Made by a program: the position numbers and the translations under genes. A stretch of DNA of 64,000 bases from Aristaeella lactis. Lineage in GTDB: Bacteria; Bacillota; Clostridia; Christensenellales; Aristaeellaceae. Location: NCBI RefSeq assembly GCF_018118585.1, contig NZ_CP069421.1, positions 1,240,001-1,304,000 on the forward strand, in the 5' to 3' direction. The notes beneath the pieces are model-generated. The model was not told where the DNA came from and made no database searches. It was given only the letters and a program-made list of their open reading frames with translations. How positions within the stretch are numbered: position 1 is the stretch's first letter; every line of letters starts with the position of its first letter. Shown here piece by piece: positions 25,757 to 46,818 of this stretch.

Positions 25757-26569
25757 TCAGATCGTTTCCACCCGTACACGCCAGAGATCGTGGATGTTCT
25801 CATCGGTCAGTTCGATCCGCAGCTCCGCTTCCGTGGCGTCCTCAATATCCTTATAGGTCAGGCCGCCGTCCTCAGACACCTGCCACTGGTAGGTAAAGCT
25901 CCGTCCCTCCGGATCATCCACAATGGCATCCAGCACCATGATGTTGTCCTCAATCAGGGTAGCTTTCACGGTTACGGTGATCTGCGGCTCTTCGTCTTCC
26001 CCTTCCGGATCCGCGGCATCTTCCGCCGCGCAGCCTTCCGCCGCGGGCGCTTCCGTTGTTTCCGTTTTCCCTTCCGCGATATCCGGCGTTTCGTCAGCAG
26101 GGACTTCCGTTACCGGTTCTTCACCGGGCTCCTGCTCTTCTCCGGGTTCTGCGTCTTCTGCTTCCTCAGCCGCTGGCGCTTCCGCAGCAGCGGCATCAGC
26201 AGCGGGTTTAGCGGGCGCGGGCGTTTCTTCAGCAGGTTCTGCCGCCGGAGTCTCCGGAGGAGCTTCTTCCGGAGCGGATGCCGGTTCTTCTGCAGGGGTG
26301 ATTTCCGGGATGCCTGAGTCAGTGACTTCAGGCGTTGCTTCCTCCCGTTCCCCGTCAGGAACAGCCGTTGTCTGCGGGGTTTCGGAACTATCCTCTGTTT
26401 TTTCTGCTGCTTCCGGTTCCTCCTGAACCGTTTCCACGGGTTCCTCCGTTATCTCCGGAGCGGCGTTCCCTTCGGATACCACTGCTTCCTCTGTAAAGGA
26501 AGGTACGGAAACACAGACCATGACCACAGTCAGAATCATCGACAGGATCATTCTGATGCGCCTGGTCAT
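25757..26569 (-). CDS. Secreted acidic Pro/Glu/Ala-rich protein with C-terminal Ig-like domain
   Basis: Function unknown. The 270-residue product has a signal peptide (about residues 5-26, hydrophobic core ILSMILTVVMVCVSV), about 150 residues of low-complexity Glu/Pro/Ala/Thr sequence, and a C-terminal domain of about 75 residues with TYQWQVSEDGGLTYKDI, which resembles Ig-like adhesin modules. There is no LPxTG motif or C-terminal membrane segment. The low-complexity composition resembles the N-terminal stalk of the giant adhesin 89 bases upstream, suggesting a functional partner. ATG at 26569 sits nine bases after a perfect AGGAGG; the in-frame GTG at 26578 overlaps that site. A TATAAT at 26629-26634 lacks a good -35. 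Confidence 0.7.
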   Translation of the reverse strand: MTRRIRMILSMILTVVMVCVSVPSFTEEAVVSEGNAAPEITEEPVETVQEEPEAAEKTEDSSETPQTTAVPDGEREEATPEVTDSGIPEITPAEEPASAPEEAPPETPAAEPAEETPAPAKPAADAAAAEAPAAEEAEDAEPGEEQEPGEEPVTEVPADETPDIAEGKTETTEAPAAEGCAAEDAADPEGEDEEPQITVTVKATLIEDNIMVLDAIVDDPEGRSFTYQWQVSEDGGLTYKDIEDATEAELRIELTDENIHDLWRVRVETI

Positions 26570-26658
26570 TTCCGTCACCTCCTTTTGTGACAGGTCCGGT
26601 TTATGTTCCTATACTCTCGTTCTCCTGTATTATACTCCAAAAACAGTTGCACGCACAG

Positions 26659-29600
26659 TTACATACAATTATTTTTCCATTTTTTTCTTCTCACCATCAG
26701 CAGGATCACCGCCAGCAGGATCATCCCGAGTCCGCATGCCGTGTATACCAGCGTGCCTTCCCCGCCGGTGCTCGGCAGAGCGAGCCCCGGTTTGTTCCGT
26801 ACGGTAAAGGTGGCTGTATCTGCGTCATAGGTTACGTGGCCGGTGTTATCAAAGAGGATCTCACCGTTCCGCACCCTGAATCCGACAGGCATTCCCAGAG
26901 CGATATAGCCGGCAGGCGCTTTCATTTCCATCAGCGTGTAGGATCCTTCTGTCAGTCCGTCAACCGCAGCCCTGCCTTTTTCTTCTCCTTCCGAACCAAC
27001 GGTGATCCCGTCCATGAACACTTCCCAGCTGTCCCCGTTCAGTTTCATCAGCCGGAATTCCGCGTCTGCCAGCGCCTCGTTGGTATTCGCGTCAGTTTTC
27101 AGCAGATGGATCTCCGTCCGGCTGTTCGTGATGACCACATGGTTATCCTCGTCCGGCTCGCCTGCCAGTGCCTGCCAGGTTTTCCCTGCGAGCGTAACAA
27201 CTCCGTCCGTGATGTCCGCTGTTTCCTGACCGCCGGAAATGCTTTCCTCCCGGATGCTGTAGGTAATGGGATTGCCTTCTTCATCATAGACAGGCAGTTC
27301 AGTAAAGGTCCGGTCTGCAATCTTCGCGTTTTGCCCGAAGGTAAGTCTGCGCGGATTGCCTTCCTCGTCTTCAACCGGTTCCGGTTCTCCGCCGTTCACA
27401 CTGCCGTACAGGCCCGCGGTGATCTCCGTCACTTCAGCCGGCCAGTCCACAGTCACGCCGTTCTGTTTCCAGGTTTTCTCCGCGGAGATGGAGGTGACCT
27501 CAATATTGGTGATGATGACGCTGTCAAAAGGATCATCGCCAAGCGCGATCTGCTTACCCTCCTCATCGCTGTAAACCGTTTCGCCGTCCTGCTTCCAGCC
27601 TTCCGGCACGGACGGTTCTGTTACCTCGTAGGTTGTTCCGAACGGAATACCGTCAATGAATACCGTGCCCTGGCCCTGGATGGATACGGTAAATTCGGCA
27701 ACCTCGCCCTCACAGGTGAAATCGCTGATTGTGCCGTTCTCCACAACCAGATCCAGCGGCTTCAGTTCCATTCCGGGAGGCAGCAGCATTTCAACATGGA
27801 ATTCAAAGGTCTGCTCCTCTGCGGCTTCCGTACTTGCCTCAGGAACCTGTTTGGTCAGTTGCAGCGGGCCAAAGTGTGAAGTGTTTTCCACCTTCAGTTT
27901 GTTTGGGCCTTCCCTGCTCAGCAGCACACCGCTGCCCTGTTTCACCCAGTCTCCTTCATTATGCCCGTGCTTATAGTAGGTGATGGGTTCAAACGCCTCA
28001 GTGTTCAGATATACGTTACCGGCAAGATCCATATATCCCGTTTCAATAATGCGGTATTCATACTGTTTGGCACCGTTGCCGTTCGGGAAGATCTGCACCT
28101 TGTCGATCGTCGCTTTCCAGTCATTGTTCCTGTTCAGCACGATCCGGTTTGTAACCGGGTTGTATACATCGGGGCCGCTGGTGATAAAGTGGTTCTGCCC
28201 AAGGCTGCCCAGTTCCGTTTCCGTGCTGATCACGGACAGGTAGTCCTCATACGGTCCGTTCGAGCCGTATTCCCTGCGTTCCACCCGGACGTAAACCTCT
28301 TCAACATTGGCGGCCACCCGGTTGTCCGCCCAGCCCTTCTCGATATCCAGAGAAGTACCGGGGGCGTTCAGCATACGGTCCTGATCCTGCGCTGTCTGCA
28401 GTTCCGAAACACGCACCTTGTTGCCGTTCGCGTCCCAGGCATAAGGCAACCAGGATGTCCACTGCCCGCCGATCGGGTTCAGGTTCCCGTCATACACCTG
28501 TACTTCCTTGTAGATATACTGGTACCGGACGACAATGATCGAGTTGTCCGCTTTCCTGTAAAGTCCCTTGGTAGGCAGGCCGTGATATATGTTATTGTCC
28601 TCAACATTGAAGTTCCAGGAGCCCCGGGAGCTGACCGAGAACGGGTTGGGATTGTCAACATAGTCATTTCCTGCCGCGTCATAGCCAAGCTTTATTGGTT
28701 TGCCGTAATTCTGCCAGCCGGTAATGTAGACGTCTTCTCCCGAACTGTAATCGATGGTCCGCCGCATCATCTGCAGCTCAATGATCATATTGCTCTGGGC
28801 CTGGTCCTCACCCGTGGTGGTATACAGACTCTGCCCGCCATTGCCGTTATCCCTGTATTCAAGGAATTTCTTCTTCAGGTCCATCTGCATATAACCGGGC
28901 AGCTTGTTCAGGATCTTAATCTCCCCGTGATTGCCGATATTCGCGTTCCGCGGCTGCTGGAAGTGAACCAGGGAACTCCAGTTGCCTGTATCGATAACGT
29001 CACGGCACTTATAGCCTTCGATCATGATCGGGAATTCATCGATCAGCGGATCCGTCCGGACATGTTCGTCCGCGGAATCCCAGTTTGGCTTGGTCAGCGG
29101 GGTTTCAATAACGAAATACCGGTATTCTTCCGGCAGGTCTACCGGGCATTCCCAGGTCCAGTTGTTTTTGTAACTCAGCCAGATCCTCGTATAGTCAAAT
29201 CCTGTATCATCCTCATAAGGCTGCGGATTTCCCCAGCCTGTTGCCGGAATATAGGCCAGCGCGAAGGAAGCGGCCGGAAGATCCTTTGTCTCCTCGATGG
29301 GAACACCCATCCATTCCTTGGTGACCCGGATGGACTTCACCTTGGTGGTCACGTTGGTAACCGTGATCACTTCCTCGCCGTCTTCATTGAATTCGGAGTC
29401 GTAAGACGAGAGATACCGCTTGTACCTGTCATCGGGAATATAGTTTGTTCCGTCATAGCTGAACTGCAGTTCTCCGTTTTCATAAACACTGTAGGAAGTC
29501 TCCCGAACCGTATAGTCGATCAGCTTCGCTTCTCCGTTCTCATCGACTGCAAACTTCGGCAGGTTTGCGAAAGTCCTTTCCTCAGCGGGTGTATCCTTCC

Positions 29601-32600
29601 GGATGATGAGATGATCCCCTGTCGGTGTTTCATCCGCCAGCAGCTGGAAAGCGGCTTCCCAGGTGAAGGAATCATCATCCGCAAAGTCAGGCCAGTTCTT
29701 TTCCACAATCACCGTTGCCGTTTCAGTCTCGTTGGTGATCGTTGCCATGCCATGGTTCAGGTAATCCCCGGTCATGGTCACTGCGCCGCCTTCGGTTTTG
29801 TACATGGCGGCCAGCGTTTCCCCGTCCGTAACCCAGCCGTCTTCCGGCACTTCGCCGTCCACCAGCTCACCGAAGTACACACCGGTTTCCTCAACGCTGT
29901 AGGTATAGGCTGTCCGCTCTTCCTCCGGCAGTTCTCCGTTCACATACTTGTCCAGGCCTTCCCAGTATACCTGCCAGTTGTCTTCCGCCTTCAGCGTTAC
30001 GGTGTCGACGACCTCAGGTTCTCCGTCGCCTGCCGTCCGCTTCAGCACAAACTGTACCGCGGTGGCTTCCAGAATATAGTCCGCGGTTCCCCAGTCCTTG
30101 TTCGCGGTAATGTCTACCACAGGCACTTTGGGGTTGATAAAGGACGCGTCCACCGTGACGTTTTCGCCGCCCTCGATGGTCCCGCTGGCATTTTCGATTT
30201 GAGGCTCATAGTATTCCGGTGTGTAATTGTCTTCCGTAATAACGTAATCCGTACCGTTCGGCAGGTTTTTAATGGTCAGGCTCTCATTATGCTTCAGTTC
30301 AACGGTGGCCGTTCCGTCCGTAAACGTCAGGCTGCCTTCCCTGTCTTCACCGCCGGAAGCCATCACGGTATCAAAGGTTTCCTCACCCGTGTGCCCGGGC
30401 AGCGTCACGGTAAAGACGAACACCTGGTCCTCATTGATCTCCTCGCCCGTTACTGTCTTGGAGATCTTCAGGTCCGCAAAGGTATCCAGCGTGTTGGTAA
30501 AGTCAACATGCTTTGTCCCGCCTGCCTCAATGACGTTGTCTCCGTCTTCCCCGCCTGCCTGTACAGCCGTATAGCCTTTAGGATCTTCAGTGACCGTAAA
30601 TATGGCGCCCTCCGGAAGTTCCAGGGCTTTCTTCATTTCGCCGTTCGTCAGGGTGAAAGTCGCTGTACCGCCACTGAAGGTCATTGCGCCGTAATCCCCG
30701 TCCGGGATCGGCTGTCCCTCCGCGTCCGTGACGGTCACGGTAAATGTGAATTCCTCCGTCAGGTCCGCGGCGTTACCGGTGATCTTTTTGGAAACGATCA
30801 GGTTGCCTGTTGTCGGATTGATATAGGTATTGGTCACCGTCAGCACGGCGTCTTCAATGTCCACAGCGGAAACGGGCGCGCCTGCCTCCGAGTCATAGCC
30901 GGCGGGAATGTTCTCTTCCTCCACCGCGTAATAATACGGTTGTCCGTGTTCATCATAGACGTCCAGTTCACTGACAACCTTTGTCCAGTCTTCCGACAGG
31001 CTCACCGTAACGGTTTCTGACCAGTCTTCATCCCTGCTGTAGCCTTCCGGCAGTCCGGAGGCGCGCAGTCTGCTGCCGCCTGATGTGAAGCCGGCGGAAG
31101 CGGTGTACCGTGCCGCTCTTAAGCCGGCGGTCAGTCCGTGCCGTTCATCCGTCCGCCCGGATACGCCGATGGCTTCAACCGTGATTTTGGTGGTAAATCC
31201 GTTGGGGAACCAGGGATCCAGTGCCTCGATCAGGATATCCCCTTCCCGCTGGATGGTATAGCTGTATGTATGCCTGCCGTCACCGTGGAAGGTAGTCACC
31301 CGCTGGCCGTTGATATAGAGTTCGCTGTCAAGGTAATTGGTGGAGTATGCGATCTCGATGATGGTTCCGACCGCGAATTCCTTCTCATAAACGTCTGTGA
31401 TGATGTTCCAGGAAACGCCCCTTTGCTGGATATGCTTTGCGGTCACTTTTACAAAGCGGCCGTAATAGCTCGTAAATGCGGCGTTTGTTGTTCCGTTCGA
31501 ATAGACAGTAACTGTCATGGGCTCCGTTGTGCTGGCATAGCTGTAGCCGGAAGGCGGCGCTCCGTTCGACACATTGGCTGTCACAACATAAGTACCGGCA
31601 GGCAGGGTGTTTTCCCCGGGCTGCAGCTGGTAGGTAGATCCGTTGCCCGTGCAGGAATAGGTTACCGCGAATCCCGCGGGCAGCGCCGGGGAATTGGACA
31701 GGCCGGCGGAAGCATGCGTGATATTCAGCGTTCCGGCGTTCTGGGAATAGAAGCTGGTAAACTCGGTGGTCACAACACCGTTTTCATGCACGTTGACCGT
31801 AACCGGATCCGATGTGAAGCTGTAGGTGTATCCGAAGGGCGCACCGCCGTTGGTTACAGTCGCGGTTACGGTATACCGTCCCGGTGGTACGGAATAGGAA
31901 CCTGCCGGCACACCGGATGCGGAGACCGGACCGACGTAGGAATAGGTCGCTGTAAAACCTGCCGGCAGTTCCGGAGAGGCCGGAATCCCGGAAGTGATAT
32001 GCGATATGTGCAGGACTCCCTCCTCCGGTTCCGGCGGGGCTTCCTTCCTGTAGCGGACAAGCTTCAGGGTGATCGATTCATCGTCATAATGGGCAGCATC
32101 ATCAGACCAGTTCTTTTTTACTGTTGTTTCGGTCCTGGCTGCCGCGTTGGTAATGATCACCTTACCGTCCGAAAAATCAACTTCCTCAGGGGCCGGCTCT
32201 TCCTTTTCGGCTGTCTGGTTGTACTGACTGATGATATTCTCGCCGTCCACGGTCAAAGCCGCTTCTTTGGCGAAATAATCCAGTTCCCATTCATTGCCGT
32301 CAGCATCCCGCCAGTTCGCGGGCATACCCGTAAACGTACCTGTCCAGTCCTCCGCGGCTTCGTTCGTGCTCATGGTCAGCACTTTCTGAATGGTCGGGTC
32401 AAAGATCGGATCGCCGTCCACGGGCAGGTATTCCTCATAGTCCGGCCAGGGGGCAAGGTTTGCCACCGGCTCGCCGTTATTTGTTTTCTGCCGTTTCGCG
32501 TAATACAGGTCGAAAGTTACCACAGCATTTGCCGGAACAGGCGTGCCGTCCGCCCAGAGCTTCTCCACTTCCAGGCTGGTATGGCTCGTGTTGACATAAA

Positions 32601-35600
32601 CGTTATAGACGTAGAACTCGACAATACCGTTCTTCTTTTCCACATTGTTCAGCGTCTTGAACGTGCCGACAACCTCGGGAACAGCAGCGTACACCGGATC
32701 ATCCATGGTGTAGATCTTGCTCAGATGGCGCGGATCCGGATAGGCTTCCTTGTCATCATACTTATTGCCGCGGCGTACGTACTCGGTCGCGATGTAGGTT
32801 TCCTTGTATTCCCAGGTGTCTCCCGATGTGTCCACAAAGGTCTGCGCGATGGTGCTTTTATCTTCCGTCACGTAATACATGCCGGGTTTGATGGCATAGT
32901 CATACACGACTGTCATGCCGTTCGGCCCGACAGCGATATTCTTGGAGTGGTATTTTGTGTAGCCGGAAGGAACGAATTCCGTTCCGTACTGGTTTACGTT
33001 GACCTCCGCCACAATATTGGGATTGGCGACCAGGCCGTTTGCGTCCTTGGCCGTGTTTCCGTAGATGTCCACGCTGTGGATGATTTTCTCAGCCGGATGA
33101 ACCAGCATTCCGTTTTCATCCACGATCTGCTTTGTCACTTCCAGCGCCACAACGCTTGTGCTGGCTGCTTCGGTATCTCCGCCCAGGACAAAGTCCATGC
33201 CGCTTCCGTCTATGATGCCGCCGCTCTGCCACAGGTCATAGTTCCAGCGGACAGGCGGACACTCATTGAGTTTGTCATAGTAGGTGAAGCTGGCCGTCAT
33301 ATCCACGTCCATGTTCAGGGACAGCGGCTTATAGGTGCCGTCAGCCATCTTTTCATACAGCTGGCCCCGGTCTGGATCCACCATGTTGAAGTCTTCGTTC
33401 TTGACCGCCGAGACCACATAGGTGATCTGGTTGTTCAGCCGTTCACGCTTCATGCGGTCGGAGTTGGTATCCTCCCACCAGTTATAGGCCGTACTGACTT
33501 CCGCCACCTTGAACCGGCCTTCAACGCGGACCTGCACGGCGCTGACATCGTTATGGGCGTTGGAGGAATAGCCTGTGATAACGAACGCGTCATCCAGTTC
33601 GTTGTTATTCTTGTCATACGCCTTGATCGTGGCGTGTTTCATGTCTTCGGGATCAATGGATACTTTGGTGCTCAGATTCAGCGTCGTGTTCGTAGTGACG
33701 TTATATTCGATCATCGCGCCCGTATCCGGATCCCGGTAATAATATGTACCGTACGCCAGGGGTACATTAACCCTGGATTCACCGGCGATGGAGATGTCGA
33801 TATGGTTTACGGAATGGTTCCGGGCGATGGGATCCCCGACCTTCGTCGGATCCGCGAACAGGATCTCCACACCGTTGTCCGCCGACTGCTGCCCCACCAG
33901 GCGGACAGGCACTCCGTGGCTGTTCAGTTCAACTCCCAGGTGATTATTGCCGTTCCAGGGCTGTGTGTACACCTGCTGGCTGTAATAGTTCACGTTGGAG
34001 CTGCGTTCTGCGTCCGTAGGCCTGATGATGGTGTTGGGATAGTTGATATGGCCCTCGTCATCCCGCCAGGCCTGGTTGGAATGCGGATCAAGGGTAACAT
34101 TTCCGCTGTTTTCCTCGGACAGGGCGTTAGCCTGGCTCGGATCCAGGTAACGCCGGTAATAGTCGGACGGCAGCTGGTCGGAAGTATATCCGGCCGCTTC
34201 CGACCTGAAGTAGATATGCCTGTTCGGATTGGTTCCGTCAACTGTCCACAGCATGGGGTTATCCACCGCCACACGGTTGGCCACCGGGTCATAATCGACG
34301 GGCGTCAGGGTGGCGTCATTGTTGACGATATAGTAATTTCCGTCATATTTCGCCAGAACCATGTATTCCTTGCCGTTTTCCATCACCGGATCGGCAAACT
34401 GCAGATCAAGAAGGTCATAGCCGGCGCTTCTCTGGTACCATCCGGCAAACCCGGTTCCGGCGTTAAACTCGTTCAGCCAGTAGGTATCGCTGCCGATGCT
34501 GGCAGAGATCAGGTATTTCCCGTTACTGTCCCGTGTAACCCCGAATCCCTGGGGCGTACTGCTCACAGCTCCGTGGGCGCGGCTTGGGTCACGGCGGTTC
34601 AAATTCATATACAGCTTGTTTCCCTGGGCGTCCGTTGTAAAGATATTATAGATGCCCGCGGTGTCTGTCGCTTCGAAAGTCCAGACCGTGGCTTCGTTCG
34701 CGTTTCTTGTTTTATGGAGCTGGTTTGTGGTGCCCAGATCAACCGTACTCGTCACATACTGGCCGTTGTGGCTCATGGTGAACCTTCTGCTGTCCAGATC
34801 CCCCAGGTCGTTCTGGGGTGTGCTGGAAGGCATGGTGATCACACCGTATACCGAGAAGGAATCAGCCTCGAACTGAATACCGGTTTCTGTACCGATATCT
34901 GCGGTAAGGATATCCGGCTCCGCTTCCGCGAAGTGAACCACCAGCAGTTCATCTGTCCGTTCTTCCGGAGCGTCCGCCAGGCTGATCTTCACGGAAACAT
35001 TGCCGTCCGGCTCGATCTTCTGTCCGCCGGACCGGATTTCGATATCAAAGAACCGCCCGTACTGGTCTTCATTAATGTATACAGGCTCATCGCCGGAAAT
35101 CCGGTCAGACTGCTCAAGGGCTGCCTTCACGGCCTTCCGCAGATGTTCCGCGTACTGCGGATCACCGGGTTGCAGCTCCGTCACCGCCAGTTCCGCGTCC
35201 GCCGGGATCTCCGCGTCAGGCCCGTAGATCACGCTGATCTCATAGGTATTTCCGTCCGCAGCCAGGACCTTCTGTGTGATCTTTTTCCGCTGCACCACGC
35301 CGAACACGGAGAAGCTGTCCGCGGTAAAGGATACCGTGTCAATCGCTTCGCTGTTCCGTTTCGCGCTGTCCTCATTCGAATCCGTTTCGGATTCAATGAC
35401 AACCGCCTCGTGGTTTTCAATATGAACTGCCTGGACGTCGTGCTCTTCCGTCAGTTCGATGATATCCCGGAAGAGGATCTGTACATCCACATCCGCCTGC
35501 GGTTCCACTTCCTCGCCGCCGCTGACGAAAGTGATGTCAAAATAACGCTCCAGGGTGATCTCGCTCCACTCCTCACCCAGCGTTTCCTCGGTCATGCCGC

Positions 35601-36606: not shown

Positions 36607-36681
36607 AAACACAGCCTCTCTGAAACAAGTAAGCTTATACGCTTTCAGGTATTGCTGAGATTGTACAATTATCCACCTTTA

Positions 36682-36710
36682 ATTATGTATTTTTTATTAC
36701 GATTTGTCAA
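36682..36710 (-). promoter_or_regulatory. Sigma-A promoter of the giant adhesin gene
   Basis: On the minus strand TTGACA (36705-36710), 17 bases (A/T-rich), CATAAT (36682-36687), about 75 bases before the ATG. The adhesin can thus be expressed independently of the srtC transcript. Confidence 0.85.
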
Positions 36711-36804: not shown

Positions 36805-37710
36805 CTATCTTCTCTTCTTTTTGCCCGGGAAAAGGACCACCCAGAGGATCAGCAGAAGCAGAACCGGGGCCGCGATGAACGGAACCACATACAGCGGTTC
36901 GACCTTCAGTGCGTCCGCTGTCACACGCACGTCCAGCAGCTCCTTATCGTTCTCCACCCGCACACCCCGGACCAGCAGCCGGTGCGTGTTAATGCCGTAG
37001 GGAGTGCAGGTCATCAGCGTGCAGTAATCCTTCCCGGGAAACAGGGAGAGTTCGGAACTGTCCTCCGGCAGGATCACGCTGATCTTGTCCACCTGGTAGG
37101 TCAGCGTCTGGTCCAGGATCGTCAGGTAGAACACGTCCCCCACTTCCATGGCGTCCAGGTCGCTGAACAGCTTGGCGCTGGGCAGGCCCCGGTGACCGCT
37201 CAGCACGCTGTGGGAGGCATACTCCACTTTGCTGAAATCATCCGGATCCGGATGGACGCTGCCGGCCGGCAGCGAGGTGCCGTCAATATGTCCGATGGAA
37301 GTCTGGAGTACCGCGTCGCTTGTTCCGTGATACAGCGGCAGGTTCACGTCAATCTTCGGGATGGAGATAAATCCCATATTGCCCGTCCCGTCCACGTTCA
37401 GCTGCCGTTCGTAATCCTCGATATCCTCATCCTCCATGGCCCAGGGATTCGGATTCTCAGCAAGCCTCCGGTTGTAATCCAGCGCCGCTTCCCAGACCGC
37501 GGTGTATTCCTCGTTGTCCATCTCCGCCACGCGTTCCGCGTAGCTCTGGATGGCCCGGGTCTGGTGCATGCTGTTCCAGTAATCACTGAAAGCGGGATAA
37601 GCCGCAATGGCTATACCGGCAAGCAGAATCAGCACCAGGATCGTATTTGACACCCGGTGGCTCTTCTTTTTTCCGGTTCCGCCCTGCGGAGCTTTTCCCG
37701 CTTTCTTCAT
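36805..37710 (-). CDS. Class C (pilus) sortase
   Basis: Membrane transpeptidase that cuts LPxTG pilins and joins them into covalent fibres. The 301-residue product has an N-terminal membrane segment (about 21-40), the sortase barrel with His173 in LSGHRGL, Cys235 in TLMTCTPYGINTHR and Arg244, and a C-terminal membrane helix (about 272-292) typical of class C. The lid region reads NPNPW (88-90 NPW) where pilus sortases usually have DPW or DPF. It starts 16 bases after the GH5 cellulase gene, so both are in one transcript. It is the only intact sortase in the window. Confidence 0.95.
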   Translation of the reverse strand: MKKAGKAPQGGTGKKKSHRVSNTILVLILLAGIAIAAYPAFSDYWNSMHQTRAIQSYAERVAEMDNEEYTAVWEAALDYNRRLAENPNPWAMEDEDIEDYERQLNVDGTGNMGFISIPKIDVNLPLYHGTSDAVLQTSIGHIDGTSLPAGSVHPDPDDFSKVEYASHSVLSGHRGLPSAKLFSDLDAMEVGDVFYLTILDQTLTYQVDKISVILPEDSSELSLFPGKDYCTLMTCTPYGINTHRLLVRGVRVENDKELLDVRVTADALKVEPLYVVPFIAAPVLLLLILWVVLFPGKKKRR

Positions 37711-38991: not shown

Positions 38992-39020
38992 ATTATATGC
39001 GATGAATTCTGTTTCTTCAA
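38992..39020 (-). promoter_or_regulatory. Promoter of the GH5-srtC transcript with LacI-type palindrome
   Basis: On the minus strand TTGAAG (39015-39020), 17 bases, TATAAT (38992-38997). Immediately upstream is the perfect palindrome CAAACGTTTG (39022-39031) inside GTACAAACGTTTGC, a LacI-family-type operator core also seen at the GH94 promoter. Confidence 0.8.
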
Positions 39021-39152: not shown

Positions 39153-40640
39153 TTATTCGTGAACCTTGCGGCGGGCCACCAGCACGATGCCCGCGCCGAT
39201 GATCAGCAGTCCGCCGATCACATAGAAGATCGTGGTGCCCGATCCGCCGGTGCTGGGAAGAACTGTTCCTTCGTTGTTCTCCACGTCGATCTCACCAAAG
39301 GAGCCTTCCGATGCCTTGACCGGAACAGCGTCCTTCAGGATCTTGTAACCGCCGGTCGGCGCCTTTGTCTCCTGCAGGCTGTAGGCCTGCACATCGGTAT
39401 CCAGGCCGTAGATGCGCACAGTTTCGCCGGTCGTGGTGATCGTCGTCGTTGTTCCTGTTTCATTGGGTTCGGCGATCCGGTATTCCTTACCTGCGGTTAC
39501 CTCAACCAGCTTCATGGGAGTGCCGTCCAGCAGGAACTGGAATTCAGCCCCGGCCAGCGGGTCCTTTGTGGTGCCGTCGATCTTGTTGAACTTGAACTCA
39601 TAGGTTTTGACTTCCGCTTTCTTGGGCTTCGTTGTGTAATTCTCGCCGTAGTCCAGCACCACGGAGTTCGATTCAGGATTGGCTGTCTGGGCATCCTTGT
39701 CAAGCATTGCGGTACAGACAATCTCAATTTCTATGACTTTGGTGCTTTCCAGCTCAGCTTTCCCGGCAGCTTCCACGACCAGCTCCTGGGGCAGGGTGAG
39801 GGTGAATCCGTCCGAGGTAGTCGCCACAGTATAAGCGTCCGAGGCCACATCCGTTCCTGTTGATCCGCCCATCTTCACCGAATCAATGGACTTATAGCTC
39901 AGTCCGGCGGTCATGGTATCCGTCAGCACGATCTGATCGTTGGCCGTGGACGGAATCTTCACCTTAATAGTAAAGGTGATATCATCACCGATCTGGGCGT
40001 TTTCGTCCGTCTCATCGACTTCCTTGGTGACCGTCGGGAATTCATTCTTCTCGCTGATGGTCACAGCGGTCAGCGTCTGTACAGCCACGTTTTTACCGGC
40101 GGTGGATGTAACGTAGTAATAGCCGGGATCGACAGTTCCGCTGGTCGCGGTGCCCGCGACTTCTGTCTGGCTGAATGTGGCAGACGGGAAAATGCTGAGG
40201 TTCATCGTTCCGATAGCAGCTGCGAGTTGAGCGCCGCTGATATCCGGATCAATCAGTTCCACATACCACCTGCTTGATTCACCAACCCGGGTCACTTTGA
40301 AAACTTTGGTTTCTGTGCCCGGAATTGTCGCGGCCGCCAGGGCATCTGCCTTGGCCTGGCTGTCCGTATGGTAGGATACAGACCCGCCGGACTGATAGAC
40401 ATCATTGATTTGCGGATCTGTACCGATATCCGCTTCCAGAATCCGGTAATACGTATACTCAGTCGTATCCTTTGCCGCTTCCGCGTCTTTGGAAGTGGTC
40501 TTGATTGTGATGCTCGGCGTGGAAGCCGTAGAGGTTGTTGTCTGTCCGCCCCCGGTATCTCCTCCGTCACCTTCCGCGAAGGCACACAACACTGTCACCA
40601 TCAGAGCCAGTGCCAGCATCAAAGCAAACAGTTTCTTCAT
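39153..40640 (-). CDS. LPxTG major (backbone) pilin
   Basis: Predicted shaft subunit of the covalent pilus. The 495-residue product has a signal peptide (about 1-23), an N-terminal domain, a segment SEKNEFPTVTKEVDE whose Lys is a candidate pilin-motif lysine, a fimbrial isopeptide (D2-type) domain (about 205-330, DDITFTIKVKIP...), a SpaA-like domain with FKFNKIDGTTKDPLAGAEF (about 345-455), then LPSTGGSG, a membrane helix and RRKVHE. Lys/Asn/Glu placements suit internal isopeptide bonds. ATG at 40640 follows GAGGGG. It has a perfect-consensus promoter and a long leader, as expected for the most abundant subunit. Confidence 0.92.
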   Translation of the reverse strand: MKKLFALMLALALMVTVLCAFAEGDGGDTGGGQTTTSTASTPSITIKTTSKDAEAAKDTTEYTYYRILEADIGTDPQINDVYQSGGSVSYHTDSQAKADALAAATIPGTETKVFKVTRVGESSRWYVELIDPDISGAQLAAAIGTMNLSIFPSATFSQTEVAGTATSGTVDPGYYYVTSTAGKNVAVQTLTAVTISEKNEFPTVTKEVDETDENAQIGDDITFTIKVKIPSTANDQIVLTDTMTAGLSYKSIDSVKMGGSTGTDVASDAYTVATTSDGFTLTLPQELVVEAAGKAELESTKVIEIEIVCTAMLDKDAQTANPESNSVVLDYGENYTTKPKKAEVKTYEFKFNKIDGTTKDPLAGAEFQFLLDGTPMKLVEVTAGKEYRIAEPNETGTTTTITTTGETVRIYGLDTDVQAYSLQETKAPTGGYKILKDAVPVKASEGSFGEIDVENNEGTVLPSTGGSGTTIFYVIGGLLIIGAGIVLVARRKVHE

Positions 40641-40754
40641 AGTCAGCATCCCCTCATTCATTATTTTGCCGTTCGTGGTTAACGCTTATATTGAATTACT
40701 TACAGGATTCTTCTTGTTGAGTAACATTGTATATACGTGTTCTATTGTGATGTA

Positions 40755-40783
40755 ATTATAGGCGTGTTTCCAATAGTTGTCAA
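40755..40783 (-). promoter_or_regulatory. Perfect-consensus sigma-A promoter of the backbone pilin gene
   Basis: On the minus strand TTGACA (40778-40783), 17 bases, TATAAT (40755-40760), with an ATGTACG motif eight bases upstream of the -35. A leader of about 105 bases precedes the pilin ATG. High pilin output is expected. Confidence 0.9.
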
Positions 40784-40834: not shown

Positions 40835-41434
40835 TCAGAACCCAAACCAGGTAAGCCTGTCAAACGGGTAGATCCGGGCCATCGGTTTGCCGTAGATCTC
40901 CTCCTGCGAAACGCATCCGAAGTTGGTCGCCCGGCTGTCAAAGGCAAAGTCCCGGTTATCCCCCATCACAAAAAACTGTCCCGCCGGTACGCGAAAGGGA
41001 AAGTCTATATCGCACTGTCCCAGCGCGTGCTCGGAAATATAGCCGTCCTCCTCCAGGAATTCCCCGTTTACCTTCACATAGCCCTTCTCGTCGATCTCCA
41101 CCTTGTCTCCTTCTCCGGCTATCACCCGGCGCAGGAGCAGTTTATTGTTGAAATAAAACCCGCAGACATCCCCGGTCTTCACATCGTCTGTTTTCACCAG
41201 GACCACAATGTCCCCGGGCTGCAGGCCCGGCTCCATGTTATGCCCGTTCGTAATCCGCAGCACGGGCAGGAAAATGAAAGCGATGATCACCGCCAGGGCC
41301 GCCACGATGACAAAGGTCCCGAAGGTTCCCTTCAGTGCCTGCCTGAACTTCCCCTTGCTCCGGACCTGGCTCATCTCGGTCTCGATCTCGTTCAGTTCCG
41401 GCAGCTTGTCGGCTTTCCTGGTCTTCCTGGCCAT
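40835..41434 (-). CDS. Signal peptidase I-fold protein lacking the catalytic Ser and Lys (SipA/LepA-like)
   Basis: S26-family fold with one N-terminal membrane helix (about 38-58). The substrate-box motif, normally GxSMxPTL, reads NGHNMEPGL, so the nucleophile position is Asn66. The box normally KRVIGxPGD reads RRVIAGEGD, so the general base position is Arg102. The downstream GDNRDFAFDSR box is intact, and the 199-residue length is normal. Streptococcal SipA/LepA pilus proteins also lack the Ser-Lys dyad and are needed for pilus assembly without peptidase activity; the same non-enzymatic role is inferred here. It is the last gene before the backbone pilin and follows the coiled-coil gene by 10 bases. 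Confidence 0.85.
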   Translation of the reverse strand: MARKTRKADKLPELNEIETEMSQVRSKGKFRQALKGTFGTFVIVAALAVIIAFIFLPVLRITNGHNMEPGLQPGDIVVLVKTDDVKTGDVCGFYFNNKLLLRRVIAGEGDKVEIDEKGYVKVNGEFLEEDGYISEHALGQCDIDFPFRVPAGQFFVMGDNRDFAFDSRATNFGCVSQEEIYGKPMARIYPFDRLTWFGF

Positions 41435-41444: not shown

Positions 41445-41843
41445 TCACTCAGTTACTTCTTCTTTGTTTTCTTCCGTTCCGGCTCTTTCCGGCCGTTCCG
41501 GCGTTTCCTGCCCGGTCGTCTGATCGTTCTCTTCTTCAGTTGTCAGATCCGGCAGGTCAATATCCACCATGGTCAGCTTCTGCAGCAGCCGCAGCTGTTC
41601 CTCGATCTTCTTCATGCGGATCTGCAGGTCTTTCGCGGCGCCCTGCATCCGGAGCTCCTCAATCCGGTTTTCATAGTCCCGGCGGGCGTAATCCAGTTGC
41701 TTGTCCGTCTGTTCCCGGATCTCAGCAACCTTTCTTTCAGCCGCCTCGCAGCGTTCCTTCAGTTCCAGGTTCTCTTTCCGCATGTTGTAGATCAGTTCCA
41801 GCAGTTCAAAGCGTCCGAGATTCTTCAGCATGTTTTTTGCCAT
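41445..41843 (-). CDS. Small coiled-coil protein of the pilus operon
   Basis: Function unknown. The 132-residue product has no signal peptide or membrane segment. Residues about 10-95 are predicted coiled coil, beginning GRFELLELIYNMRKENLELK, and the tail is acidic (Glu/Thr-rich). A short motif of the ELLEL...KEN type is familiar to me from small coiled-coil proteins encoded beside sortases and pilins in other Clostridia, which I cannot verify here. It lies 32 bases after the solute-binding protein gene and 10 bases before the pseudo-peptidase, so it is co-transcribed. A cytoplasmic scaffold for pilus assembly is one possibility. Confidence 0.65.
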   Translation of the reverse strand: MAKNMLKNLGRFELLELIYNMRKENLELKERCEAAERKVAEIREQTDKQLDYARRDYENRIEELRMQGAAKDLQIRMKKIEEQLRLLQKLTMVDIDLPDLTTEEENDQTTGQETPERPERAGTEENKEEVTE

Positions 41844-41875
41844 GCGCTGTTCCTCCGCATTCCGGCCGTATCGTT

Positions 41876-43897
41876 TTACGGCAGCAGTTCATAATCATCA
41901 TCCGTGATGGAGGGATCGATGCCCCTGTCTACCATGGACTGGTACACGTTATAGTAACTGGATGCCACGATGGCATCGCCCCAGGTGATGTACTGGATAA
42001 TGTCGTAGTTCATCAGGTCGCTGGTGTAAAAATCATAGTATACGTTGGAGTATACCGGGATCAGCGGCAGCATGTCGCTCAGCTTTTCCTGGAACGTGAT
42101 CCACTTCTGTACAAAGCCCAGGGCATCATCCGGCATGGTCTCGCACATCAGGCGGGCGTATTCATACATCTGGGCATGAACCCAGGCCAGGCTGTCTTCC
42201 GCCGGTGCCTTCGGATCACCCGGCAGGAAAAACAGCTGGGGATCAAATTCGATATTAAAGTCATCGCCCACATAGAACATGTCAATGCCTTCCATCTCCC
42301 GGTCATGGTAGGCGTGCACCAGGTCATTCATCTCCATGGGTACCAGGGTCAGGCGGATGCCGGCTTCCCGCAGGGGCTGTACCAGGCTCTTTTCCATCGC
42401 CTCCGCCATTTCATTGCTTTCCGGATAAGCGCAGGTCAGATCCAGCGTCAGCAGTTCACCCTGGACGATCTTGCAGCGCACGTCATCCTGTCCCTCGCGG
42501 AACCGTTTCCCCTGCTCATTCATTGTCCAGCCGTCCGCGTCCAGCAGGCGGGATGCTTTTCCAATATCCGGCTCGTAGTGTTTCACACCGTCCAGGGAAA
42601 GGGATTCCCACTGCCCGATCCGTTCTTCGTATTCGGCTTCCTCCTCCGGCGTGGGATCTTCCGGCAGGCTTTCCGGATACTCTTCCGTTCCCTTGACCAT
42701 GCCGTACATCCACTGTCCGATACCGATCATTCCGTCCATGGGAATGCCGTACAGGTAGGTATATTCATCCCGCATGGCGTTTTTGTCCATACAGTAGGCG
42801 ATCGCCTGCCGGACGTTCTTTGCCTGCACTTCCGGGCTGTCCGGCGTAAAAACGATGAAGGTCAGGCCGATCCGGGGATAGTTGGTCATCGTATAGCCTT
42901 TTCCGGAGGAAACCAGATTCATTCCCTTATCGATCGTATCCCGGCGAACCACTTTGTTCAGCAGCTGGAACTCATCCTTTTCCAGTTTTTCGACCATGTC
43001 CTCGTCCCTGGCGAGGGTAAAGCGCAGCTTCGGAATCGTGGGTTTGAAGCCTTCCGTGTTCCCCTTGAAATAAGGGTTGATCTCAAACGTACACGTACAG
43101 GTTTCGCTGTCCCAGGAAGTGATCGTATACGGGCCGCTGCCCACCGTGGGATGGGACAGGTAGCCGCTGTCCGGATCCATCACCGTGGCCTCGAGCAGGT
43201 CCCGGGTAAAGATCCTTTCAGTCACTTCCCGGTCCTCATTGCCGATATAGACACCCTTCCCGTCATCATAAACCCTGCAGCCCGGGGCAATCTCATGGAT
43301 CGGATACGGCAGGAACCCGAGCCGGTACAATTCAAAGAAATACGGAAGAGCCTCCGGCTTCACCCTGAATTCGATCATCCTGTCATCCGTCACCCGGACA
43401 CCGGAAAGGTAAGGCACCTCGCCGGAGATATATTCCTCATAGCCTTCCAGGTAGGACAGGTCCATAGGCCGGCCGCCCAGCTCGGCGATCTCCGGTGCGA
43501 TCTGGAACAGGACGGAGAAAGCATAGTCCCAGGCCGTGATCTCGGTTCCGTCGGAATAATACAGGTCATCCATCAGCTGGAACCGGTAGATCCGGTAATT
43601 CTGCTGGTCCTCAAACACGCCCTGCGCGGCGCACACCACCGGATTGGCCCGGAAAAAGCCGGTGTCATAGCCCCAGGAAACCAGGTAATAGGCGTGGACC
43701 AGCGTCCGTACGTCAATATCGGTTGTGGCGTTGCCCCACATATCGGTAAAGAATTTCCCGTCCATCCGGGTGGGGTTGCCCACTGTCAGCTCCTCATAGT
43801 CCCTGTCCGGATAAGCAGACACGGCCGTCTCCGCGGACGCGGGAATGCCGCTGAACAGCAGCATTCCGGCAGCAAGCAATGCGATCAGTCTTTTCAT
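41876..43897 (-). CDS. Family 5 extracellular solute-binding protein within the pilus operon
   Basis: Related to periplasmic/lipoprotein oligopeptide-binding proteins (OppA/DppA, SBP_bac_5). The 673-residue product has a signal peptide (about 1-23, ending PASA) but no lipobox Cys, so it may be released or held by partners. Family features include FQLMDDLYYSDGTEITAWDYAFS, the GSGPYTITSWD segment and VRQAIAYCMDKNAM. No permease or ATPase genes are adjacent; the neighbours are pilin and assembly genes. The gene follows the minor pilin by 36 bases. It may have been recruited as an adhesin or sensor, or may feed an importer encoded elsewhere. Confidence 0.85.
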   Translation of the reverse strand: MKRLIALLAAGMLLFSGIPASAETAVSAYPDRDYEELTVGNPTRMDGKFFTDMWGNATTDIDVRTLVHAYYLVSWGYDTGFFRANPVVCAAQGVFEDQQNYRIYRFQLMDDLYYSDGTEITAWDYAFSVLFQIAPEIAELGGRPMDLSYLEGYEEYISGEVPYLSGVRVTDDRMIEFRVKPEALPYFFELYRLGFLPYPIHEIAPGCRVYDDGKGVYIGNEDREVTERIFTRDLLEATVMDPDSGYLSHPTVGSGPYTITSWDSETCTCTFEINPYFKGNTEGFKPTIPKLRFTLARDEDMVEKLEKDEFQLLNKVVRRDTIDKGMNLVSSGKGYTMTNYPRIGLTFIVFTPDSPEVQAKNVRQAIAYCMDKNAMRDEYTYLYGIPMDGMIGIGQWMYGMVKGTEEYPESLPEDPTPEEEAEYEERIGQWESLSLDGVKHYEPDIGKASRLLDADGWTMNEQGKRFREGQDDVRCKIVQGELLTLDLTCAYPESNEMAEAMEKSLVQPLREAGIRLTLVPMEMNDLVHAYHDREMEGIDMFYVGDDFNIEFDPQLFFLPGDPKAPAEDSLAWVHAQMYEYARLMCETMPDDALGFVQKWITFQEKLSDMLPLIPVYSNVYYDFYTSDLMNYDIIQYITWGDAIVASSYYNVYQSMVDRGIDPSITDDDYELLP

Positions 43898-43933: not shown

Positions 43934-44809
43934 TCACTCAAAGCAGACACCGACATGGATCTGGATATTGCCAAGCCCCAGGGAAGCTTCATAATCCTCA
44001 ATGGCTATGGTTGTTTCTCCCGGATTCGGCTGCAATGTAGGCGCGTGTTTCGGCACAGGCGTATTGTCTGTTACGGGCGCGGGTGTCGGTACCGGTTCCC
44101 TGGTAACCCTCGCCGGCTTCTTCGTGGCTTTGGATGCGGGTTTGGGTGTGGTTTTGTCAGTCGGCGCCGGGGAAACGGACGGTGTTGCCGTATTGTCCGG
44201 CGATTCAGAAGGAGCGTCGGTCGGCGCCGGTGTCGGCGTCGGCGTTACATCCGGCGGCACAAAAGGCGTAAACGTAGGCTTCACCGTTGGCGTTGGACTG
44301 GGTGTGGGCGTCTCATATTCATACTTGGCCATTGCCCGAACCTGTACATTGCCGGAGCTGTTCGGCACAGCCAGCAGCATCGCGCTCATCGTCAGGCGTT
44401 CCGGCCCCGATATCATTTCTGTATAATAAATACCATGTACCAGGTTTCTGAACTCCAGTTTACCGTTTTCATCGCTGACCGCGCTGTCGGTCGGTTTGAT
44501 CTTCCTGTCCGCGATCCGCTGCCGGATCTGGCTCAGCGTTTTGTCCACGGAAGCGGATCCGTCCTTCCGGATGAAAACAGTGATATCCCGGAAATCATCC
44601 TCCATTGTCCAGTCGCCGTAATCTCCTGTGGCGATCAGGTAGATGGCCAGATGGATCCCGCCCGGATCAAATTCGTTCTTGTCATCGCCTATGGTGATGC
44701 TCAGCCAGCCGTCCTTCGTTTCCTCCGTACCGGCCGGAACAGACACAGCGGAAAACAGCAGCGCGAGAACCATCGCGATGCCCAGCATCCTCAGTCTGCT
44801 TCTCTTCAT
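43934..44809 (-). CDS. Minor pilin-like protein with Pro/Thr-rich stalk, no sorting signal
   Basis: The 291-residue product has a signal peptide (about 1-27), one Cna-B/pilin-like domain (about 33-165, with GIHLAIYLIATGD, ENGKLEFRNLVHGIYYTE), a roughly 95-residue Pro/Thr/Ala/Lys stalk rich in TPTP and PAPT, and a short C-terminal end with VGVCFE. Basal pilins of Gram-positive pili often have a proline-rich C-terminal stalk but then an LPxTG signal; none is present, nor a membrane helix. How it is retained is unclear; the single Cys near the end is notable. The ATG overlaps the pseudo-sortase stop by four bases. Confidence 0.75.
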   Translation of the reverse strand: MKRSRLRMLGIAMVLALLFSAVSVPAGTEETKDGWLSITIGDDKNEFDPGGIHLAIYLIATGDYGDWTMEDDFRDITVFIRKDGSASVDKTLSQIRQRIADRKIKPTDSAVSDENGKLEFRNLVHGIYYTEMISGPERLTMSAMLLAVPNSSGNVQVRAMAKYEYETPTPSPTPTVKPTFTPFVPPDVTPTPTPAPTDAPSESPDNTATPSVSPAPTDKTTPKPASKATKKPARVTREPVPTPAPVTDNTPVPKHAPTLQPNPGETTIAIEDYEASLGLGNIQIHVGVCFE

Positions 44810-45777
44810 TGCTCCTCAACCTCTTCGATCCTGTCCGGATTCTTTTCCGTTGTTTCTTTCTTCTCTTCTGTTATTTCCTGTTGTTCCCCGTCTTCCGGCA
44901 TTCTCTCGCCGGGCAGCCGGTAGATCCGTCCGCGGATCAGCTCTATAGCCAGCAGGACCAGCAGTCCCGCGATCATCACCGGGCAGCCCAGGAACAGCAC
45001 GTTCTTCCAGTTTTCAGGGAATGCTGCCTGGTCCTCTTCCGCCAGCAGCGTCCGGGCTTCCCGGACGGGGATCCGCTCCGCCTGTACCATCAGCCGCCGG
45101 TCTTTCCGCGGGGAGATGATCGTCAGCCGTTCCTCCCCCTCGCCCGGGGTCAGGTCCATTTCCTTCAGTCCCGCGGCCGACAGCATCTGTATGCCGGACA
45201 CCCGGTAGACCAGGGTCCTGTCTGTCACATTCAGGATGATCAGGGTCCCCGGGATCATGCTGTCCAGGTCCTCCAGCATCCGCTCGTCCGTCAGGCCCAT
45301 TTCCCCGAGGAGGCCTTCCGCCTGGAGGATGCCCGGCCCTGCCAGGATGATATTCTCCCCGCTTCCGTCCGCCGGCAGGGAGCTGGTATCCACATGTACC
45401 AGTTTCCGGGTCGCCGGTGTTTCCGTGCTCAGATGCCAGATCGGAAGCGACAGCCGGATCGCCGGGATCACCAGTTCCCCGATCACCCCGTCATGCACGT
45501 TCATCCGGTTCTGGTAATCCCTGGTGGTCCGGATTGTTCCTGCCGTAAATACGTCTTCCGTATGGACCTTTTCCAGGCTGTCATTCCAGGCCTTTGCCTG
45601 TTCAAACAATTCAGCCTTTCCTTCGGCGTCCAGCGCCGCTGTCTTCTCCCGGTAGGCTGTCATGATCTCCGCGTCCCGCCGCCGTCCGAGCTGGTCGGAA
45701 ATCGTCGGATAAATGAAGTATCCGATAACGGCAGCAGCCAGCAGAAGCAGGATCAGTACCGTCAGAAACTTTTTCAT
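44806..45777 (-). CDS. Sortase-fold protein lacking catalytic His and Cys (pseudo-sortase)
   Basis: Class C sortase-like architecture: N-terminal membrane segment (about 3-24), a sortase-type domain with IGELVIPAIRLSLPIWH and VHVDTSSLPADGSGEN, a C-terminal membrane helix (about 260-282) and an acidic tail. The His box, normally LSGHRGL, reads LAGPGIL (Pro148 at the His position). The Cys box, normally TLMTCTPYGINTHR, is shortened to TIISPRKDRR (Pro213 at the Cys position; an Arg remains). Transpeptidation by the usual mechanism is therefore impossible. The reading frame is clean and overlaps both neighbours by four bases, so it looks maintained, not decayed. A scaffold role in pilus assembly is inferred. 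Confidence 0.8.
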   Translation of the reverse strand: MKKFLTVLILLLLAAAVIGYFIYPTISDQLGRRRDAEIMTAYREKTAALDAEGKAELFEQAKAWNDSLEKVHTEDVFTAGTIRTTRDYQNRMNVHDGVIGELVIPAIRLSLPIWHLSTETPATRKLVHVDTSSLPADGSGENIILAGPGILQAEGLLGEMGLTDERMLEDLDSMIPGTLIILNVTDRTLVYRVSGIQMLSAAGLKEMDLTPGEGEERLTIISPRKDRRLMVQAERIPVREARTLLAEEDQAAFPENWKNVLFLGCPVMIAGLLVLLAIELIRGRIYRLPGERMPEDGEQQEITEEKKETTEKNPDRIEEVEEQ

Positions 45778-46697
45778 TCTGCCGCCTCCGTTTCACTTCC
45801 GGCGACAGTGGTCTGCCTGCCTGTCAGGTCCCCGAAGTACTGAAGCGGCCACAGGGCGAACTCCGCCCTGCCCAGGATCTCTTCATCCGCCACGGTATTG
45901 TAATCTGTTTCCCGGCTGTCCATGGAAAGACTCAGCTGGTCTCCCTGCACAAAATACCGGTCTTTGGGCACGATGACCCGTCGTCCTTCCGGCGCCGCGT
46001 CTTCCGTGCGTCCGGAGGTATAGCTCCGGTCGATCTCCCGGCCGTTTACCCGGGTTTCAGCATAGGGGCTCAGCACAACCCGTTCCCCGGGACCCGCAAT
46101 CACCCGCTTCATCTGGGTGCGGACCGGGTTGTTCACGGAAAACGGAATCGGATCCTTGAGCAGATCCTGCCCGTAGGAGGCCATCACTTCCTGCAGGTGG
46201 TATTCCCCGTTCTTCAGGTCTTCCGTCGCGATGGTAACCGTACCCTCATCACTGCTTTGGAACACATCGGCGTTGGTCTGGTCCGCCAGCCATACAGCGG
46301 TACCGCCGGCCGTGGAAAAATACTGCCTGGTTGTTCCCACATCCCGGTAAAGGATGTATTTGCAGTACCTGCGAGTCTTGCCCTTCGGGCTGAGGATGGT
46401 CAGTTCCACCGGCTTTGCCAGCCGCTTTTCGAACAGCAGAATATCCCCCGCCTCATAGGTTTTGCCGGTTTCCGGCTTCCGGACAAGGACCACGGTGCCT
46501 TCCGGAAGCGTACCGCCCATGGCGGCCCCGTGCGTCACGGCCAGCTGGTAATAGCGATGGAAAACGAACAAGCCTGTGGCGATGCTCAGGATCAGCAGGA
46601 TGGACAGGCCGATGCAGAGGCGTTTCCTTCTGTCGGAACGCCTCACACGCCGCATTTCCCGAAGCAGCTCTTCATCTCTGGGATGATAGATCTCCAT
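45774..46697 (-). CDS. Signal peptidase I-fold protein lacking the catalytic Ser, with inserted SpaA/Cna-B-like segment
   Basis: First gene of the upstream pilus operon. The 307-residue product has a long cytoplasmic N-terminus, one membrane helix (about 28-47), and an S26 fold in which the GxSM box reads HGAAMGGTL (Ala59 instead of Ser). The KRVIAGPGE box keeps Lys187, and the later box reads GDQLSLSMDSRET. Between the boxes, residues about 120-178 look like a SpaA/Cna-B prealbumin fold: GTAVWLADQ, GEYHLQEVMASYG and DLLKDPIPFSV match the usual end of such domains. This insertion is longer than the normal variable region of signal peptidases. A SipA-like chaperone that contacts pilins is inferred. 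Confidence 0.8.
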   Translation of the reverse strand: MEIYHPRDEELLREMRRVRRSDRRKRLCIGLSILLILSIATGLFVFHRYYQLAVTHGAAMGGTLPEGTVVLVRKPETGKTYEAGDILLFEKRLAKPVELTILSPKGKTRRYCKYILYRDVGTTRQYFSTAGGTAVWLADQTNADVFQSSDEGTVTIATEDLKNGEYHLQEVMASYGQDLLKDPIPFSVNNPVRTQMKRVIAGPGERVVLSPYAETRVNGREIDRSYTSGRTEDAAPEGRRVIVPKDRYFVQGDQLSLSMDSRETDYNTVADEEILGRAEFALWPLQYFGDLTGRQTTVAGSETEAAE

Positions 46698-46789
46698 CCG
46701 TATCTCCTGTGCCCGGTATTCCGGAACAATCCGGACGCTGATGCTTACCGGAAAAAATGATCAAAATATCTGTAGAATATACCACGATG

Positions 46790-46818
46790 AGTATATATCT
46801 TTTGTGTTTTCTTTTCAA
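46790..46818 (-). promoter_or_regulatory. Sigma-A promoter of the upstream pilus operon
   Basis: On the minus strand TTGAAA (46813-46818), 17 bases, TATACT (46790-46795), about 85 bases before the first gene. The 314-base spacer 46698-47011 contains this promoter, the GH10 terminator and short tandem repeats, and no gene. Confidence 0.8.

Follow-up and report, generated by a model that had tools for sequence, protein, structure and literature searches.

A class C sortase pilus locus of Aristaeella lactis with conserved noncatalytic sortase and signal peptidase relatives and a C-terminal protein tail linked to a neighboring family 5 binding protein

The window analyzed here is the whole stretch of 64,000 nucleotides from Aristaeella lactis (contig NZ_CP069421.1, positions 1,240,001 to 1,304,000, forward strand; genome size, 3.45 Mb), and coordinates below are window positions unless another locus is named. 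Our subject is an eleven-gene locus that a first-pass annotation, made from the sequence letters, had read as a pilus locus with one active sortase and three pseudoenzymes. From 46697 down to 25757, the genes encode a signal peptidase-like protein (Lep1), a sortase-like protein (pSrt), a minor pilin-like protein, a family 5 binding protein (SBP5), a coiled-coil protein, a second signal peptidase-like protein (Lep2), a backbone pilin, a cellulase-family protein (GH5), a class C sortase (SrtC), a giant adhesin, and a small Ig-like protein. A check of the open reading frames (ORFs) bore out the proposed layout: all eleven frames are open and lie on one strand, and four junctions overlap or are separated by at most 16 bases (Lep1/pSrt, -4; pSrt/minor pilin, -4; coiled coil/Lep2, 10; GH5/SrtC, 16). 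The genes and the features within them are as follows.

45774..46697, minus strand: Lep1, 307 residues, membrane protein with an S26 (signal peptidase) fold, Ala59 at the nucleophile position, Lys197 present (TIGR02227, 72.8 bits, above cutoff)
46116..46415, minus strand: SpaA/CnaB-like (pilin-type) domain inside Lep1, residues ~95 to 194 (PF17802, 24.1 bits, just above the Pfam cutoff of 23.1; PDB profile matches)
44806..45777, minus strand: pSrt, 323 residues, class C sortase-like fold without His and Cys, membrane helices at both termini (PF04203, 29.2 bits, above cutoff; NF033745, 94.5 bits, below the cutoff of 160)
43934..44809, minus strand: minor pilin-like protein, 291 residues, Pro/Thr-rich stalk, without LPXTG (no Pfam or NCBIfam match of its own)
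43937..44020, minus strand: C-terminal tail of the minor pilin-like protein, …IEDYEASLGLGNIQIHVGVCFE-COOH (tail alignment and profile matches)
41876..43897, minus strand: SBP5, 673 residues, secreted family 5 (OppA-like) binding protein, no lipobox (PF00496, 113.4 bits, cutoff 32.4; N-terminus, L085)
41445..41843, minus strand: coiled-coil protein, 132 residues (by eye; precedes Lep2 in relatives too)
40835..41434, minus strand: Lep2, 199 residues, S26 fold, Ser replaced by Asn66 and Lys by Arg102 (TIGR02227, 100.2 bits, above cutoff)
39153..40661, minus strand: backbone pilin, LPSTG (NF033902, 104.8 bits, cutoff 95; pilin domains PF16569 and PF17802)
37727..38947, minus strand: GH5 cellulase-family protein, secreted (PF00150, 200.9 bits; signal peptide by eye)
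36805..37710, minus strand: SrtC, active-type class C sortase (NF033745, 257 bits, cutoff 160; SGHRG, TCTPYG)
26659..36612, minus strand: giant LPSTG adhesin, 3317 residues (Cna_B, DUF7601, DUF5979, and SpaA domains)
25757..26578, minus strand: small acidic secreted protein with an Ig-like C-terminus (by eye; no family above its cutoff)

Profiles and residues agree with the earlier identification of SrtC, the backbone pilin, and the giant adhesin. SrtC has its catalytic His (SGHRG), Cys (TLMTC; TCTPYG), and Arg, and its ratio of nonsynonymous to synonymous substitution rates (dN/dS) is 0.03 to 0.09 in four species pairs; its gene lies before Lep1 in some relatives and after the pilin in others. 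With an active-type SrtC and an adjoining LPXTG backbone pilin, the locus appears, by its genes, to be a class C sortase pilus locus. Orthologues of the minor pilin-like protein vary in length and in their middle part, with the extreme C-terminus common to all; one of them (L043) matches NF033902 weakly, below cutoff.

The sortase fold without His and Cys and the two signal peptidase folds without Ser, all three described in the first-pass annotation, were confirmed by profiles and residue alignment. pSrt has AGPG at the SGHR site of SrtC and TIISP at its TLMTC site, and its sole Cys sits in the C-terminal membrane helix. A search of the PDB with its profile gave class C sortases (4d7w, E 5.9e-30), and an AlphaFold2 model is of moderate confidence (predicted local distance difference test score, 74; predicted template modeling score, 0.67); pSrt has, as predicted by these comparisons, a sortase fold. 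The Lep1 profile matches signal peptidase I in the PDB (4nv4, E 1.2e-9). In its HGAAM motif the catalytic Ser is replaced by Ala, and the retained Lys197 is a detail beyond the earlier description.

Are these catalytic-site losses shared by orthologues? The related records are metagenome-assembled Clostridia, the titles of 4 of 14 naming rumen, omasum, or goat ileum, and several of their loci run into a contig or fetch end, which leaves some of them incomplete. The block Lep1-pSrt-tailed protein-SBP5-coiled coil-Lep2, whose gene order the earlier annotation proposed to seek in related genomes, recurs across many species. Among 24 pSrt-type proteins from several genera (11, the window protein included, plus 6 plus 7, picked after gene mapping, with the L124 protein counted despite a 60-bit score), Cys is absent from 23 and His from 22. 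The nucleophile Ser is missing from 23/23 Lep1 proteins, Lys is present in 20 (lost in L123, L124, and L125), and a GDxxxLSxDSR box is found in most rows; these counts, like those for Lep2 below, exclude L121 (higher Lep2 score, Ser and Lys present, no adjoining pSrt found) and the L071 S26 protein, whose Lep1 and Lep2 scores are near equal. Outside the family, by comparison, His, Cys, and Arg are kept in 34/34 sortase ORFs from the 29 loci that matched the pSrt profile best. An initial pSrt search matched 15 of 61 genomes, some of the matches being ordinary sortases, and the pSrt profile matched 63 of the 391 genomes of a class sample, the A. lactis genome among them, in which the window's family has one other genome. 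Because the same losses occur in orthologues, they are not due to chance. In four species pairs, dN/dS is 0.06 to 0.16 for Lep1 and 0.11 to 0.19 for pSrt, and this ratio together with the orthologue conservation rules out pseudogene decay of either gene. Lep1 and pSrt are, as far as alignments and substitution rates indicate, a kept pair under purifying selection, because the catalytic losses are near universal in orthologues and dN/dS is low.

The third supposed pseudoenzyme has a different history. Lep2 of the window has Asn for Ser (NGHNM) and Arg for Lys (RRV). In the same block of 17 species, Asn and Arg are found in 8/17, Ser and Lys in 8/17, and Thr and Lys in 1/17 (L065); Ser and Lys are also present in the relatives L048 and L049, from other families of the order. 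Same-order homologues with catalytic residues thus exist for Lep2, and because Lep2 homologues in the block retain Ser and Lys, the earlier claim of a conserved set of three is unsupported as a set; the part of it that stands, on conservation and dN/dS (0 to 0.07 for Lep2 in four species pairs), is that none of the three is a decayed leftover. Two proteins, Lep1 and pSrt, make up the kept set, and the third is dead in one clade only. The eight dead-Lep2 species form that clade with a local support of 1.00 in a tree of Lep1, pSrt, and SBP5 (17 species; Lep2 excluded), and judged from these sequences the dead form is confined to it and conserved there. An insert of ~100 residues in Lep1 is found in the same eight species and was not seen in the other 15 Lep1 proteins compared. 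This is the SpaA domain listed above, and the Lep1 profile over it matches pilin chains in the PDB (9lty, 9vo5, and EbpB 9lj6). Because the same eight species are concerned, the branch on which Lep2 lost catalysis is also the one on which Lep1 gained a pilin-like domain.

Two loci point to an older arrangement. In L048 and L049, intact-residue Lep2-type proteins lie near backbone pilins, SrtC, and minor pilins with LPXTG-type ends, the identity of the latter backed by PF16555 and Cna_B. A coiled-coil protein adjoins the S26 gene in L049 (2897-3388, by eye), as it does at 41445-41843 of the window; it is probably cytosolic, because no signal peptide was seen by eye, and the coiled coil-S26 pair may be a pilus partner of old standing, one side of it cytosolic. 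From these two loci, an older core seems to have gained Lep1, pSrt, the tail, and SBP5 in the window's family.

What could hold the minor pilin-like protein in place of an LPXTG motif? The first-pass annotation had described it as a stalked minor pilin and had missed its conserved end and the pairing with SBP5. The protein ends in …DYETPLGLGxIQxHVGVC[FY]E-COOH. A DNA pattern for this tail recovered only the window copy, and a protein profile of 28 residues was needed for others; it was built from 17 tails that, because they were found by gene order, are not independent finds. In the A. lactis genome the profile found seven full tails, five of them in the training set. Five SBP5 paralogues were found there, each after a tailed gene, and the five tailed proteins are the minor pilin, a MucBP-domain class B sortase, a MucBP-like protein (below the Pfam cutoff), a Cna_B protein, and a protein of 3248 residues with no Cys in its tail. 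The two tails outside the training set, in L088 (1083-residue frame) and L090 (6147-residue frame), have no adjoining SBP5. At the 51 places that score 25 bits or more and have a fetched locus, which cover the better matches and are not a full census, the tail ends at the stop codon in 51/51 and SBP5 is the next gene downstream in 42/51. For tails outside the NHVGDC subtype, SBP5 is directly downstream in 29/29.

The tail was detected in 49/200 genomes and 12/50 genera of a family sample, in 9/248 genomes of an order sample (two of them false), and in 1/391 genomes of the class sample, A. lactis itself. Internal matches below the 25-bit floor were L099 and L100 (another protein, presumably RnfC) and L092, L114, and L115 (partial); L170 was too short. 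The divergent tails L188 and L191, below the floor and seen by eye, are outside the counts, and the SBP5 of G213 follows a divergent tail scoring 14 bits. Conservation of the tail merely through an SBP5 ribosome site or an overlap with SBP5 was rejected, because tail-SBP5 distances range from overlap to ~200 bases and nine tails have no SBP5.

SBP5 resembles OppA-type proteins in fold and profile, with peptide-binding OppA structures and PrgZ (4faj) among its PDB matches. It differs from them in that a lipobox is mostly absent, no permease lies in the tested neighborhood, and the gene is tied to a C-terminal tail. A lipobox-like site was present in 4/40 readable N-termini and absent from 36/40, the window protein among the latter; three more, having no clear signal peptide, were left out of this count. 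No ATP-binding cassette (ABC) permease or ATPase was found in the eleven-gene locus or among the tested neighbors of the other four A. lactis SBP5 genes. One of these four lies in a second pilus-type locus, L052 (C1:2808000-2827900; 7403-12909), with a pilin-like protein, a SipA-like S26 protein (Ser to Asp), and the tailed class B sortase with MucBP. In another record, L190 (3102-7501), an OppA-like protein without a lipobox by eye precedes two permease-like genes and is likely a relative of the SBP5 ancestor.

Tail and SBP5 sequences vary together. Among 48 unique tail-SBP5 pairs (out of 70 found, the rest copies or near copies), distances correlate with a Mantel r of 0.755 and a P value of 0.0001 that ignores relatedness. 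More telling is that tail class appears to go with SBP5 clade and not with locus type, with one exception: 15/15 NHVGD tails fall in one SBP5 clade and 13/14 HVGVC tails in another, and in the pSrt-locus pairs of L066, L118, L119, and L166 (L070 locus) the tail is NHVGDCFD and SBP5 groups with that of non-pilus pairs, L082 for example. A comparison of the HVGVC and NHVGD classes gave 28 SBP5 positions with consistent differences. At two of them, 394 (Gly/Glu) and 397 (Met/Glu), which flank an invariant Gln-Trp, the NHVGD class is distinct from all others.

How do these genes compare with known systems? SipA/LepA of Streptococcus pyogenes FCT-2, -3, and -4 is, like the S26 proteins of the window, encoded in a pilus operon; it has an S26 fold without Ser and Lys. 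According to the portions available of the reports on it, SipA is required for pilus assembly by a mechanism left unexplained (PMC4049620), was proposed to bind components and aid assembly, as could be the case for the S26 proteins of the window, and belongs to a group of dead peptidases whose role in assembly is an open question (PMC4049620, PMC7900414). Those operons, as far as described there, have one S26 protein and a class B sortase, whereas the window has two together with a class C sortase and a dead sortase; Lep2 lacks both Ser and Lys, whereas Lep1 retains Lys and carries a SpaA domain. The SipA-like protein beside the class B sortase in L052 is separate from the window pair. In the srtF cluster of Streptococcus suis, the accessible text reports Ser and Lys in SipF and persisting polymerization without it (PMC2797073). 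SipF, a dyad-keeping S26 protein in a class C sortase pilus cluster, is thus like Lep2 of the dyad-keeping species; its cluster differs in having one S26 protein, with no pSrt, tail, or SBP5 found in that text (PMC2797073). For AbpA of oral streptococci, the excerpts at hand describe a short C-terminal motif paired with a dedicated neighbor, SrtB (PMC4974636). The likeness is an unusual conserved C-terminal motif with an adjoining partner gene; the AbpA motif, on that account, is cleaved by its partner, an active sortase B, whereas the tail partner in the window is a family 5 binding protein. Among the matches listed by our literature search, no paper dealt with a pilus-locus sortase relative kept without catalytic residues nothing relevant dealt with family 5 proteins and pili, and none of the papers on rumen pili was of use.

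We infer every binding step of the model that follows, and the platform itself, from the folds, residues, gene order, conservation, adjacency, and co-variation observed. The best explanation, which we hold tentatively and at a little less than probable, is a class C pilus locus with a family-specific noncatalytic assembly module and docking of the tail by SBP5. SrtC would do the chemistry of pilus polymerization. Lep1 and pSrt, with their overlapping frames, would form a membrane platform in which the S26-like cleft of Lep1 holds the pilin N-terminal region and the sortase-like groove of pSrt the C-terminal sorting signal, so that both pilin ends are presented to SrtC. The minor pilin would be captured not by LPXTG anchoring but through its C-terminal tail, recognized by secreted SBP5, which would dock its tailed partner at the surface; the tailed partner in L052 is a class B sortase itself and so fits docking of assembly parts. 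Lep2 would originally have been an ordinary pilus-linked signal peptidase that lost catalysis in one clade, and because this loss and the uptake of the SpaA domain by Lep1 fall in the same clade, the platform appears to have been rebuilt there. It is quite possible, short of probable, that the tail (…DYETPLGLGxxxxHVGxCxE-COOH) and SBP5 are an undescribed docking system that replaces the LPXTG of the minor pilin beside a dead sortase/peptidase platform.

Several observations weigh against this model. For streptococcal SipA, the part of the report at hand found no interaction with pilin, sortase, or peptides in vitro (PMC4049620), so that an S26 platform is undemonstrated even in streptococci. 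The L122 relative of pSrt has both His and Cys and is of the active type, and the L125 relative has His at the aligned position. Since L122 (G422) pairs its active-type sortase with a Ser-less Lep1-like protein, this one case hints that the peptidase partner lost function before the sortase. Besides the limit on its P value, the Mantel correlation alone is no proof of contact, because adjoining genes are inherited together, and linked inheritance explains part of it. The exception to the class rule is the first cassette of L068, with an HVGVC tail and an SBP5 outside the HVGVC clade (the two tail-SBP5 cassettes of L068, at 501-3347 and 7073-10353, flank Lep1 and pSrt). Every one of the nine tails without an adjoining SBP5 belongs to the NHVGDC subtype. 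Two NHVGDCFD tails occur in G018, neither adjoining SBP5, and none of the three SBP5-like proteins found there (one after a divergent tail, one without a tail, and one before permease-like genes) has NHVGD-class residues. A general disulfide between the tail Cys and Cys369 of SBP5 is contradicted by 7/47 pairs. In the 48 pairs, 38 have both Cys, 2 neither (L081 and L113, orthologues of each other), 6 the tail Cys only (L096, L098, L104, L163, L172, and L176), and 1 the SBP5 Cys only (L179), with a gap in 1.

Other explanations share much of this evidence. The tail could be a signal for another surface machine, or a peptide that is cleaved and sensed, with SBP5 merely travelling along. Signalling peptides are the ligands of family 5 proteins like PrgZ, and the match of SBP5 to PrgZ, the 9/51 tails with no adjoining SBP5, and the lack of a matching-class SBP5 among those found in G018 all suit this idea; we consider it doubtful, although a serious contender, because the non-NHVGDC tails invariably precede SBP5, tail class goes by SBP5 clade and not by locus type in all cases save one, and the tail is the extreme C-terminus of otherwise dissimilar proteins, a class B sortase included. 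It is unlikely, to our mind, that pSrt and Lep1 are regulators or decoys that bind the signals of SrtC and of the housekeeping signal peptidase and so slow or order processing. In favor of this idea, both keep their active-site surroundings, Lep1 in its Lys (20/23) and, mostly, its GDxxxLSxDSR box and pSrt in its sortase profile match, and the same conservation data fit regulator and scaffold without separating them; the recurring block with SBP5, the coiled coil, and Lep2 suggests a structural complex. Ordinary transport, with SBP5 as a peptide uptake protein and the S26 and sortase relatives as drifting duplicates, strikes us as very improbable: SBP5 does score as PF00496, and an SBP5-related protein of G018 precedes two ABC-permease-like genes (by eye), but the A. 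lactis SBP5 genes have no permease among their tested neighbors, and conservation and dN/dS oppose drift.

The remaining features concern transcription and neighboring genes. A scan by consensus matching, in which chance matches also arise, gave the following sites, each a consensus match only.

46790..46818, minus strand: promoter-like site 5' of Lep1, 10/12
40755..40783, minus strand: perfect sigma-70 consensus 5' of the backbone pilin, 12/12
38992..39020, minus strand: promoter-like site 5' of GH5 and SrtC, 10/12
36682..36710, minus strand: promoter-like site 5' of the giant adhesin, 11/12

With sites 5' of Lep1, the backbone pilin, GH5, and the adhesin, the first six genes, Lep1 through Lep2, may be one operon. 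Upstream of the locus lies a GH10 xylanase with CBM_4_9 (47012-48568), and past its downstream end a large GH94-phosphorylase-like protein (21871-24396; by eye, no family search). Elsewhere in the genome, L053 (C1:1880000-1899900; 9149-14636) has a further sortase beside two VPKTG-ended repeat proteins (by eye).

The family offers a natural experiment on noncatalytic relatives in pilus loci. The same block occurs with a live-type or a dead Lep2 and with a Lep1 that does or does not carry a pilin domain, and one relative has a second sortase of the live type. The locus may be a new form of sortase pilus, and the tail-SBP5 pair may be a new kind of system. If binding of the tail by SBP5 is true, it would be a new way of recognizing secreted proteins at the surface, built on a nutrient-uptake fold.

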